Positions 3,395 to 32,555 of a DNA stretch of 39,067 bases are shown here, in pieces. Position numbers and translations under genes: made by a program. The notes beneath the pieces were generated by a model. That model saw only the letters and a list, made by a program, of their open reading frames with translations. It did not search any database and was not told the DNA's origin. Numbering within the stretch: the stretch's first letter is position 1; each line of letters begins with the position of its first letter. Origin of the DNA: a virus. The stretch is taken from the IMG/VR virus record IMGVR_UViG_3300009788_000070, positions 1 through 39,067 of that record; one strand, written 5' to 3'.

Positions 3395-3859
3395 TTTTGG
3401 GGGGCTCTCGTCCGTCGTAGGGCGGTTGCTATCGACGCCCTTCACTACCGGCGTATCGGAAATCCACATGAGCACCTCGAAAAGACCGGTCATCACATCG
3501 ACCTTGGCCGTGTCCCGGAACTGTTCCCACGTCTCGGTGGACCCGCCACGCTTGAGGCTGAGCCAGAGCATTCGCATTCGACCAGCCTGGTCGTCGGTCT
3601 GCTCGAACAGCGTGAACGAACGGCCGGCCACTTGGCCCATCGCCTTGCCGAGTGCTTCCGGAGACAGGCCGCGACACTTCATCGCGCCTTCAAACAGGGC
3701 GGCGAAAGACTCCGCTTTCAGGAACGCTTGCAAGTCGGCGTAGTCGTTCAGTGTCAACTGCTTGAGCGGGTATTCGTTCCCGTTTATCTTGATCGGGTAC
3801 GTCGCGTCGCCCATGTCCGAGCACGATTCCGGCTTTACGTATTTGACAGATGCTTGCAC
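3371..3859 (-). CDS. Tail assembly chaperone (G-type), with -1 frameshift extension
   Basis: 162 aa in the zero frame from GTG at 3859, chosen because AGGAGG (3864-3869) lies 4 bases upstream. The protein is acidic and helical, and the gene sits between tail-tube-like genes and the tape measure, the lambda G position. The heptamer C CCA AAA at 3401-3395, in the correct X XXY YYZ phase, lies seven codons before the TAG stop. A -1 slip joins a 44-codon extension ending at TAA 3261-3263, giving a 199-aa G-T-like product. Such chaperones coat the tape measure before tube polymerisation. The family is assigned from position and the frameshift, not from a sequence motif. Confidence 0.83.
   Translation of the reverse strand: MQASVKYVKPESCSDMGDATYPIKINGNEYPLKQLTLNDYADLQAFLKAESFAALFEGAMKCRGLSPEALGKAMGQVAGRSFTLFEQTDDQAGRMRMLWLSLKRGGSTETWEQFRDTAKVDVMTGLFEVLMWISDTPVVKGVDSNRPTTDESPPKSKNGETA
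3395..3401 (-). promoter_or_regulatory. Programmed -1 frameshift slippery site
   Basis: CCCAAAA on the minus strand, read in zero frame as C CCA AAA. Both tRNAs can re-pair in the -1 frame (CCC, AAA). It is preceded by further C residues (six in a row, 3399-3404). Position and phase match the tail-chaperone recoding sites of siphoviruses. Confidence 0.8.
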
Positions 3860-3867
3860 AAAACCTC

Positions 3868-4359
3868 CTATACGGTTCCAATCAAAACAATTTCGTAATT
3901 CACTGTATTCGTTGACGTGATCGTTATCACGTCTGCACTGGTCGCTACAATAGTCCATTCGTCGATCGGATTCGTACGATACACTACGCCGCCTGGGTCA
4001 ATCTGCTCTGTCGGTGCGGTACCGCCGAGTACGACCGTAGTATAAAAGTCGCCCGAGATAATGAGTTCGTCGGCGGCCGTTGACGACAGGTTGCCGATGT
4101 AAATGGCCTTGATGGTCGTGAACACCAATGCCGTGCCGAAATCGTCGGTTAGCGAGCCAGCGTCCAGATCAAAGTTGATCGAGGTCGATGCAAGCGACGC
4201 GGTTTTCTGCCAGAACTGATTGGCCTGATTGTCTCCGGTTCCGGTGTTCCAAAGCTGCTCGCGCACCATCGACATTTGCACGAGCGGGTTATTGAACGCT
4301 CCGGACCCGACGAACTGGCCGGACATTTCAAACTTGGTTGCGGCATTGAGCGTCGCCAT
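3868..4359 (-). CDS. Tail-region structural protein, unrecognised
   Basis: 163 aa, ATG at 4359 one base after the preceding TAG. The sequence is rich in Thr, Ser and Val with alternating hydrophobic residues, suggesting a beta-rich virion protein. It lies between the tail-tube-like pair and the tail chaperone. It does not share the FESSG ending of the two genes before it. It could be a second tube or tube-associated protein. The stop lies inside the SD of the chaperone gene. Confidence 0.8.
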   Translation of the reverse strand: MATLNAATKFEMSGQFVGSGAFNNPLVQMSMVREQLWNTGTGDNQANQFWQKTASLASTSINFDLDAGSLTDDFGTALVFTTIKAIYIGNLSSTAADELIISGDFYTTVVLGGTAPTEQIDPGGVVYRTNPIDEWTIVATSADVITITSTNTVNYEIVLIGTV

Positions 4360-19211: not shown

Positions 19212-20156
19212 TCATGGCAGCGCCTCAAATGGTTGGCCTTCGGGGTCAGGCGGGAGGGACTCACTTGTGGGCGGGCAATGACATCGCTGCCCAGCCTCGG
19301 GCGCAAACCCGCACCCTTGACAGTAGTTGCTCGGTCGCCTCGATAAATCAACCTTGCTGTAATGAGCACCGCACGCCTTGCAAAGCGGCACGCGAGGACC
19401 ACAGAAGTATCTTCCGCACGTAGGACACGAAACGCCTCTCGATGGCGTTGCCAGGGTTCCCGTACCCATGCAGCGAGGACACTCAATGAACCGACTAAGC
19501 CATTCGCCGTTTTCTTGGTACCGCTCTTTGACCTCCATGTGACCGTTGCACCTGGGGCATGGTTTTTCTTCGTTCCCCCTTCGCGTGTCGTCGAAGGCTG
19601 CAAATAGTTCCGCCGACCCGGGATTGTCAATATAAGCCCACGCCGCCGCGAGTTGGTCCTTGTGCTTTAGCCTTTGCTCTTCGGATTTGAACCAGGTGTC
19701 TCGTTCCTCGTCGTAGAGTTCTGCGCAACGCTTCGTCAGCCGCTCAACCTCCGCACGCGATTCGGCTAGCTGCTTTCGTAGCGAGGCGTTGGTTCGGAGG
19801 AATACGACCACCTCCGCACGCAGGCGTTGGACTTCGACTGCAAAAGCCTTGGCATCGTGGTCAACGCCTCGACTGCTGTGGCCAACCTCCCTGCCTGCGT
19901 ATATCTGTAGCTTTTCCTCGGTAATCTGACCTGGATTACCGATACGTTTCTGTCGCTCAGCAGCCGCTCGCATCCCGTCATGCGTGCAGGGTGTCGATCC
20001 AAGCAGGTCGCCGCATGTTCGGCATCTCTTCTCTTCGCTCGGCCGGTCTGCCGGGGCGGGTTGGTCGTACACAGCTCGGTATGTTTCGCTGCTAGCCCTG
20101 CTGGCTCTGCTGTGACGCTCCAGTGCGTCGGAAACTTTATCGCCTTGCTCAGTCAT
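19212..20156 (-). CDS. Coiled-coil protein with multiple zinc knuckles
   Basis: 314 aa. 'CRTCGDLLGSTPC' lies at ~45-57. A long charged coiled coil follows (~105-170). Then come a DnaJ-type 'CPRCNGHM...CPRCMGTG', 'CPTCGRYFCG', 'CKACGAHY', 'CQGCGF' and a final 'CHCP'. At least five CxxC pairs follow the coil. It looks like a scaffold or nucleic-acid adaptor, but no named family is recognised. The start overlaps the preceding gene by eight bases. Confidence 0.75.
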   Translation of the reverse strand: MTEQGDKVSDALERHSRASRASSETYRAVYDQPAPADRPSEEKRCRTCGDLLGSTPCTHDGMRAAAERQKRIGNPGQITEEKLQIYAGREVGHSSRGVDHDAKAFAVEVQRLRAEVVVFLRTNASLRKQLAESRAEVERLTKRCAELYDEERDTWFKSEEQRLKHKDQLAAAWAYIDNPGSAELFAAFDDTRRGNEEKPCPRCNGHMEVKERYQENGEWLSRFIECPRCMGTGTLATPSRGVSCPTCGRYFCGPRVPLCKACGAHYSKVDLSRRPSNYCQGCGFAPEAGQRCHCPPTSESLPPDPEGQPFEALP

Positions 20157-31612: not shown

Positions 31613-31818
31613 TCAATTTCCAGCTTTGGCCTCGGCGATGGCTACTGATAGCGGGCTTTTCACGGGTGTCCGTGCCGCAATCTCATCAGTAACGCGTTCG
31701 TGGATCACTCGCAGCACGAGTCTTGCTTGGTTCAGGCTCATCGTTTCGTGGTGCCTCGTGTTGAGCTGGATGTTTTTCAGCAAGTCTATCATTCGATCAC
31801 TCCTGCAATGGGCTCAAT
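31606..31818. repeat. 12-bp direct repeat flanking the first early gene
   Basis: AATGGGCTCAAT at 31606-31617 and again at 31807-31818, 201 bases apart. The first copy overlaps the gene's stop region and the second precedes its SD. It may mark duplication or insertion of the small gene, or matching regulatory sites. Chance cannot be excluded. Confidence 0.5.
31613..31792 (-). CDS. 59-residue first early gene, unrecognised
   Basis: ATG 31792 has AGGAG seven bases upstream and the frame ends at TGA 31613. Helical, with 'LNTRHHETMSLNQARLVLRVIHERVTDEIAART' and an Ala-rich tail. It is the first protein gene after the structured leader, a place where phages put regulators or antiterminators. That role is position only. 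Confidence 0.7.
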   Translation of the reverse strand: MIDLLKNIQLNTRHHETMSLNQARLVLRVIHERVTDEIAARTPVKSPLSVAIAEAKAGN

Positions 31819-32105
31819 AGGACACGTAGCGGCCTCTGGAAGCCGCAACAGCCACCAGAACCTCTCGGCGGTCCGTGCCAAGAGGCCCGAGAGTGAAGCC
31901 GCCACGCATCCGTAGGTCGGCGAAGCTGGGCACGGCTCGGGCCGTTTGCCGCCCTTTACCCACGCCACCGCCAACCACTGTTATTGTCCGTGGCCGGTGC
32001 TAAACCCCTACCCATCACCAGCTCCCAGCCACGTTAGGCCGTTGGCGGACGCTTGGCCTTCGTGTTAGCGCCGATACTATCAGCCGCCACTGATCACGGA
32101 CAAAC

Positions 32106-32225
32106 TGCGGTAGGCCGGGAATCGAACCCGGCTGCCTAGTTGCACTACGTCTTTCGACGCACCGAATCTGCTTCCAAGAGCAGTGGTCGGACACCCGCAC
32201 GCTCACCTTCCGTGCTGCTACCGCA
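32106..32225 (-). ncRNA. tRNA-like element with T-arm and 8-bp closing stem
   Basis: Minus strand: TGCGGTAG at the 5' end pairs with CTACCGCA at the 3' end. Immediately inside lies a perfect T arm, CCGGG-TTCGATT-CCCGG (with one extra G-C pair). A D-arm-like GCACG...CGTGC with a GG-containing loop follows the 5' strand. The total is 120 nt. I cannot find a standard anticodon arm, since the candidates have 6- or 8-base loops. It could be an intron-bearing or degenerate tRNA, or a tRNA mimic. It is not called an ordinary tRNA. Confidence 0.45.
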
Positions 32226-32431
32226 CACCCGGCCGAAGCCGGCGTATCAAAGGCCCACCGTCGCTGCCCGTCACGTCCTTACTCGGGATTTCGGTCTTTT
32301 GACGTCCACGACGGGGACCACGCTCACCCGATGACCGGGCTGAGAGAATCGAAAAAATAACCCGCCGGATTGCACCCACCCGGATACAAGTACAATCCAT
32401 GCTCTCGCCGGGATGGAGTGGCGGGCGTAAA

Positions 32432-32512
32432 AACGCCCCGGCTGGCGACAGGCAATGGTAGTAACCTACACAGCACGGGGCGTTAAAGCCTAAGTGAGAT
32501 GATCTACCATTG
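32432..32512 (-). promoter_or_regulatory. Leader attenuator with two interleaved stems (pseudoknot-like)
   Basis: Minus-strand order: CAATGGTAG (32512-32504), AACGCCCCG (32484-32476), CTACCATTG (32461-32453), CGGGGCGTT (32440-32432). Each 9-base arm pairs perfectly with the arm two positions on. The second stem can be extended by GCTG/CAGC past one bulge and runs into a T-tract (TTTTT at 32429-32433), so it can act as a terminator. A competing hairpin GGGCGT-TTTT-ACGCCC uses the same 3' arm. Confidence 0.6.
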
Positions 32513-32526
32513 TTCATCGCGTCTCA

Positions 32527-32555
32527 AATATACCCCACAAAATCCCGCCAAGCAA
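32527..32555 (-). promoter_or_regulatory. Likely main early promoter
   Basis: TTGCTT (32555-32550), 17 bases, TATATT (32532-32527) on the minus strand, preceded by AT-rich DNA and located in the gap after the tail-fibre operon. Transcription would begin near 32520, a few bases before the first arm of the interleaved stems. Confidence 0.6.

Follow-up and report, generated by a model that had tools for sequence, protein, structure and literature searches.

Tandem terminators and a tRNA-like element in the non-coding gap between the presumed late and early genes of a phage

Genome setting of the leader

The window, that is, the whole stretch of DNA that was analysed, is an entire IMG/VR record of 39,067 bases, and the leader discussed here lies on its minus strand. 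This strand codes for a Mu-type portal and protease and for a terminase. Because the tail-fibre genes are situated above 33 kb, and the recombination and replication genes (exonuclease VIII-like, Erf, GHKL-type ATPase (phrog_6077) and replication-initiation-like genes) below 31.3 kb, the stretch 32525-31820 is taken as the gap between the late and the early genes. No tyrosine or serine integrase (Phage_integrase, Resolvase) and no HTH_3 repressor domain was found in the window, the record being possibly incomplete. The phage is an unclassified, Mu-headed and probably lytic one.

It had been suggested earlier, from the sequence, that this gap forms a leader of some 700 nt, and its non-coding nature is confirmed. 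The longest ORF across it (99 aa) was considered as a gene and rejected, as its codon log-odds came to -0.14 in a coding test in which phage genes mostly score +0.1 to +0.2. The early operon probably begins with an ORF of 59 aa located just beyond the gap (Table 1), for which family searches gave no match. Elsewhere in the window, an ORF of 314 aa (19212-20156, minus strand) has a CxxCxGxG zinc-finger stretch. It was considered as a Q-like antiterminator and rejected, its PHROG match being weak (E 1e-4) and Pfam pointing instead to a sub-threshold DnaJ-type zinc finger.

Table 1. Features of the leader and its surroundings (positions in the window)
Feature	Position	Strand	Evidence
Putative promoter TTGCTT-N17-TATATT	32527..32555 (32555-32527)	-	sequence scan
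Arm a (CAATGGTAG)	32504..32512	-	exact sequence
Arm b (AACGCCCCG), 5' stem of T1	32476..32484	-	exact sequence
Arm a' (CTACCATTG)	32453..32461	-	exact sequence
Arm b' (CGGGGCGTT), 3' stem of T1	32432..32440	-	exact sequence
Intrinsic terminator T1 (b:b' hairpin + TTTTT)	32429..32484	-	core hairpin -27.3 kcal/mol, rank 4/42
Segment c (ACGCCC), partner of b' (third hairpin) or part of the 5' stem of T2	32423..32428	-	folding
Intrinsic terminator T2 (c:c' stem 32426-32360, then TATTTTTT)	32352..32426	-	-30.5 kcal/mol, rank 1/42
C(UUCG)G hairpin, adjoining the tRNA-like element at its 5' end	32225..32245	-	sequence, fold
tRNA-like element, discriminator A	32106..32224	-	pattern scan, fold, shuffles
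Domain closed by TTGTCCGTG/CACGGACAA (9 bp)	31984..32103	-	fold only
Long imperfect hairpin domain	31912..31978	-	fold only
92-nt domain, closing helix of 17 bp without mismatch (4 G-U pairs)	31820..31911	-	fold, z-score
59-aa ORF, GGAG start region	31613..31792	-	sequence, coding test

Putative promoter, interleaved arms and terminators

The promoter-like sequence TTGCTT-N17-TATATT is present upstream of arm a. It agrees with the consensus at 8 of 12 positions and is the only place on the strand where TTG is combined with a -10 site of at least 5/6 matches at a spacing of 16-18 nt (1.8 such sites are expected by shuffling). It is also located in an AT-rich island, whose 35% GC over 60 nt is among the lowest values of a genome that is 58% GC. 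Judged from the sequence, it is a plausible promoter, though a weak and unproven one.

Past this site, two perfect 9-mer pairs occur on the minus strand, in the a-b-a'-b' order that the original prediction had given. An interleaved perfect pair with arms at most 120 nt apart is found nowhere else on the entire minus strand; by chance, such a pair arose in 13 of 60 shuffles of the whole strand but, when the 736-nt region was shuffled by itself, in only 6 of 2000 cases. A mini-ORF, MVDHLT (32510-32490, minus strand), lies within arm a and its loop and has no clear ribosome site.

All the hairpins of the minus strand with a following U-tract were ranked, which gave 42 terminator-like sites. In the leader, a stable GC-rich hairpin stands directly before a U-tract at both T1 and T2. 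The first of these is the b:b' stem, already proposed as a terminator, and the proposal has gained in strength; the second is the strongest terminator of the minus strand and had gone unnamed. The sequence CGGGGCGTTTTT of T1 is found again at 3249-3238, where it makes up the 3' half of a plain terminator, AACGCTCCG-CACG-CGGGGCGTTTTT (3261-3238, minus strand), which is located between two late genes. Its stem has the same sequence as that of T1, the difference being the long loop of T1. Because of this recurrence, b:b' is seen as a terminator stem that the phage uses elsewhere, and this reuse is the strongest reason to regard b:b' as a terminator. Another strong hairpin of terminator-like form, at -30.1 kcal/mol and with TTTTT behind it, was observed at 28394-28343 (minus strand), just upstream of the start of the GHKL ATPase gene.

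A third hairpin had also been expected to compete for an arm of T1. This hairpin, b':c (GGGCGT/ACGCCC, covering 32438-32423 on the minus strand), does so, and competes for an arm of T2 too, being incompatible with both terminators. When growing transcripts were folded, the probability of a:a' was 0.99-1.00 at 68-80 nt, and that of b:b' was 0.97 by 92 nt. With the structures forced, the energy at 93 nt was -26.2 kcal/mol for a:a' and -34.4 kcal/mol for T1, which favours T1 by 8.2 kcal/mol. Taken together, a:a' and b:b' have the topology of an H-type pseudoknot, in which the two pairs need not exclude each other; a pseudoknot that joins both 9-bp stems cannot be scored by the folding program.

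tRNA-like element and downstream domains

The most interesting part of the leader is a tRNA-like element of 118 nt (32224-32107, minus strand), which was overlooked earlier. It has a 7-bp acceptor (GCGGTAG/CTACCGC), a D-like arm (GCACG-GAAGGTGAG-CGTGC), an expanded middle in which hairpins replace the anticodon arm and there is no usable anticodon, and a canonical T-arm (GCCGGG-TTCGATT-CCCGGC). The tRNA-like fold is adopted without constraint, at -52.1 kcal/mol. Neither ARAGORN nor the Rfam tRNA model (RF00005) makes a call on 32224-32107, which does not have the 5-bp/7-nt anticodon arm of a canonical tRNA. Uridine-8 is highly conserved in tRNAs, and the acceptor and T-stem normally add up to 12 bp; here, position 8 is a C and the sum is 13 bp. 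The strict tRNA-like pattern appeared in 1 of 200 shuffled strands, and a permissive score at the level of the element was reached by 5 hits in 200 shuffled windows. The chance of such an element is put at 0.01-0.025 for the whole window and at much less for the leader interval.

The domains downstream of this element are predicted from folding (Table 1), and the fold of the leader resembles separate domains on a string. The folding window that holds 31911-31820 has a z-score of -4.51, the lowest of 650 on the minus strand, and the leader region as a whole has a mean fold z-score in the bottom 1% of runs. In phage DNA, helices comparable to the 17-bp one that closes this domain have a density of about 50 per Mb.

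Similar elements in other phages

A DNA search for relatives of the leader (phages, plasmids and one viral-contig pattern) returned no homologue of it. A protein-guided search (tail fibre, exonuclease, portal, ATPase and Erf) led only to distant phages, with neither a leader homologue nor a close relative among them.

Elements of tRNA-like form were found in 4 of 80 GHKL ATPase loci and in none of 80 Erf loci, and 0.79 Mb of scanned Erf loci held none that scored at least 20. The phage with the best ATPase match (L019) has no such element in its record. The second-best match (L020, 46%) has two, at 3775-3880 and 3908-4027, inside a 517-nt non-coding gap about 4 kb upstream of its ATPase gene and in the same orientation; one of them scores 53 bits with the Rfam tRNA model, and ARAGORN rejects both. 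The nearest relatives of this phage are without its leader. Two further elements (L022, 2504-2628 and 2634-2728) precede a tmRNA and phage tRNAs by a few kb, and another (L028, 7872-7965) just before the ATPase gene of its phage. An association with the GHKL ATPase gene is suggestive only and is not claimed. Since these elements cannot be aligned with each other, homology among them is without support.

Some other observations were made in these phages. A non-canonical tRNA-like element is present at L027:15258-15393; together, the elements of L020, L022, L028 and L027 measure 92-136 nt, are not called by ARAGORN and are in some cases tandem. The tmRNA of L022 (5203-5562) has the predicted tag GPSAVTGNFSFPTQNAQPMRMAA and adjoins the phage tRNAs. 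Nearly perfect inverted repeats of 29-47 bp around about 75-90 nt were seen at L031:10133-10285, L042:9962-10110, L051:2561-2726 and L057:6074-6257. Distant GHKL-carrying phages, whose ATPase is about 32% identical to that of the window, share one site with conserved flanks and a closing helix of 15-24 bp (L047:5553-5690, L053:6242-6403, L068:6172-6296, L072:5999-6118 and L083:1097-1222). The sequence of this helix varies on both sides (GGGGTGTGATTTGG vs GGATGTAGCTCGG), and its interior is variable and tRNA-like in L047. Rfam is silent on this site, which is a candidate for a new structured RNA.

Interpretation and rival explanations

The region is probably a stop-and-leader region of an ordinary kind that has an unusual tRNA mimic in it, and not an immunity RNA of the P4 type. 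The explanation that we favour, with a confidence a little above even, is that of a late/early boundary, where T1 and T2 follow the putative promoter and are followed in turn by a structured RNA, the tRNA-like element of which is processed into a stable RNA. It is grounded in the sequence elements themselves, in the rank of the terminators (T2 and T1 stand first and fourth of 42, and the stem of T1 is used again at 3261-3238) and in a tRNA-like architecture that goes beyond chance. From these, we infer the transcription, the processing and any function of the leader RNA.

The tandem terminators would stop late transcripts from entering the early genes and, if the putative promoter is used, would give rise to two short RNAs, one of about 90 nt and the other of about 165 nt. 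On the emerging RNA, a:a' would pair first, and would then be displaced by T1 or be retained as a pseudoknot; at equilibrium, it should have little effect on T1. Further downstream, a structured non-coding RNA of about 500 nt would contain the 118-nt element. In read-through transcripts, RNase P and a 3' tRNA nuclease could cut at this element and thereby free the early mRNA along with a stable tRNA-like product comparable to T4 rnaC; this product may occupy tRNA-handling or tRNA-cleaving enzymes.

This explanation is consistent with the order of folding, where a:a' forms first and b:b' then takes over, and with the non-coding nature of the interval. It also agrees with the unconstrained fold that puts the acceptor, the D-like arm and the canonical T-loop in the right order, and with the extreme z-score of the 31911-31820 domain. 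The paired elements upstream of the ATPase gene in L020, set against none scoring at least 20 in the Erf loci, and the occurrence of the same T-arm in T4 rnaC argue for it as well. Against it stand the weakness of the putative promoter and the need of the early genes for antitermination if this promoter, upstream of T1 and T2, is the sole early one. The C at position 8, the 13-bp sum of the acceptor and T-stem, the lack of an element in L019 and the failure of both the DNA and the protein-guided searches to find close relatives of the leader also count against it.

It is unlikely, yet far from negligible, that only ordinary intergenic terminators are present, the tRNA-like form and the remaining domains being due to chance or to sequence decay. 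T1 and T2 would be enough to mark a late-early boundary, about 0.025 of shuffled windows yield a permissive tRNA-like hit, and helices like the long closing one are met with elsewhere in phage DNA. However, the phage is gene-dense and all the elements sit in a single non-coding gap of 700 nt, the mean fold z-score of the region belongs to the lowest 1%, and L020 carries similar elements at a comparable place.

A true attenuator for the early genes is likewise improbable but worth keeping in view. In such a scenario, a:a' with b':c as the antiterminator would allow passage of T2, T1 with T2 would stop transcription, and a protein, a ribosome or an RNA would set the balance. The original prediction had raised the idea of an RNA switch, which has partial support: as b':c competes for the arms of both T1 and T2, a two-state leader is structurally plausible. 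The sets {a:a', b':c} and {T1, T2} are mutually exclusive without any pseudoknot, and their forced energies in a 176-nt RNA (-64.9 and -65.5 kcal/mol) are only 0.6 kcal/mol apart, so an attenuator is possible, if unproven, on the strength of the modelling. The early formation of a:a' and the rarity of the interleaved 9-mers in local shuffles fit with this. Against an attenuator, stopping is strongly favoured by thermodynamics at T1. Bacterial attenuators have mutually exclusive terminator and antiterminator stems, and the exclusion of T1 and T2 by b':c resembles these; the difference is that neither a ligand nor a binding protein has been identified here, nor any leader peptide that has a good ribosome site.

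More doubtful is a broader proposal, according to which the elements of the window, L020 (two), L022 (two), L028 and T4 rnaC would belong to an undescribed class of tRNA mimics with a replaced anticodon arm, spread over unrelated phages. These would be processed, stable early-leader RNAs and would serve as decoys for tRNA-cleaving host defences or for tRNA enzymes.

That the leader is a large and ornate phage RNA of the GOLLD or ROOL sort, and has the tRNA-like part inside it, is very unlikely. The likeness lies in a long structured non-coding phage RNA of about 500 nt with an internal tRNA-like element, and the linker of GOLLD sometimes holds tRNAs (PMC12286853). Nevertheless, the leader matches neither family by Rfam covariance models even at a permissive threshold, appears to fold as separate domains and lies outside any tRNA island.

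Still less probable is immunity of the P4/P1 type, in which a short leader RNA acts in trans, pairing with the early transcript as it is being made and forcing it to terminate. This was the analogy drawn in the original prediction, and it could not be upheld. The P4 leader and its CI RNA do offer a parallel, with complementary segments in an untranslated leader past an early promoter and termination as the outcome. Here, the a-b-a'-b' order comes directly after the putative promoter, and b' can pair both upstream (b) and downstream (c). The CI RNA of P4 and the C4 RNAs of P1/P7 are processed by RNase P. In P4, however, each of the two copies that flank the middle segment pairs with it over at least 8 nt, whereas the second pairing of b' extends to 6 nt at most. 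With the P4 leader as a positive control, a scan for a segment that can pair with one copy upstream and another downstream recovered the P4 triple 8651/8463/8383 (TTCACAGG/CCTGTGAA/TTCACAGG), which pairs over at least 8 nt; the same scan found no triple at 8 nt in the window region. With arms no more than 120 nt apart, 99 of 1000 shuffles also contain the weaker 9+6 triple that the window has. Rfam 15 gave no match on the region at the gathering score, C4 antisense RNA (P1/P7) included, and a permissive Rfam scan of it gave weak hits only, with nothing credible and no phage antisense or immunity RNA. Lysogeny genes are a further difference from P4, as no integrase or repressor domain was found in the window. 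Lastly, a phage attachment site made from the 3' end of a host tRNA would account for the good T-arm and 3' acceptor half, but is hardly probable at all, given the matching 5' acceptor and D-like arm at the right places upstream and the window's lack of a detected integrase.

Comparison with known tRNA-like RNAs

Returning to the favoured explanation, a stop-and-leader region with a tRNA mimic, the pair of T1 and T2 offers a clear and testable late-early boundary, and the tRNA-like element can be compared with RNAs already described. The YrlA Y RNAs have a tRNA-like domain with the anticodon part replaced, and this domain is proposed to act as a competitive inhibitor (decoy) of anticodon nuclease (PMC7790460). 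They differ in that YrlA is absent among the Rfam matches of the leader and that no gene for a Ro/Rsr protein was noticed in the window; a Deinococcus Y RNA gives a weak match to the region (17.6 bits, E 4.4), which is carried by the T-arm.

By analogy, the nearest known counterpart is rnaC, a stable RNA of phage T4. Like rnaD, it is phage-encoded, non-coding and of similar size; the two, also called stable RNA species 1 and 2, measure 139 nt (rnaC) and 119 nt (rnaD). T4 rnaC ends in the T-arm CCGGG-TTCGAAT-CCCGG and an acceptor-like strand; the same arrangement (CCGGG-TTCRANT-CCCGG, then an acceptor-like strand, with no usable anticodon) is present here. Thus, the element has the rnaC-like form, with a TTCRANN-loop T-arm by an acceptor-like stem and no usable anticodon within 100-140 nt, which is a resemblance of form only. 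In contrast, rnaC and rnaD adjoin a tRNA cluster, and they have no sequence homology to the window. Both are transcribed, are classed as late and are detected late in infection (PMC9697503), and neither has a known function (PMC3014915). For rnaD, a convergent SNP has been reported from the evolution of a T4-like phage on a single E. coli strain (PMC12685909). As the T4 stable RNAs C and D are without a known function, counterparts in small phages matter. If tRNA-like RNAs do occur in small unrelated phages, in a leader and not in a tRNA cluster, these would be tractable cases for finding the role of such RNAs, for example, as decoys of anticodon nucleases.
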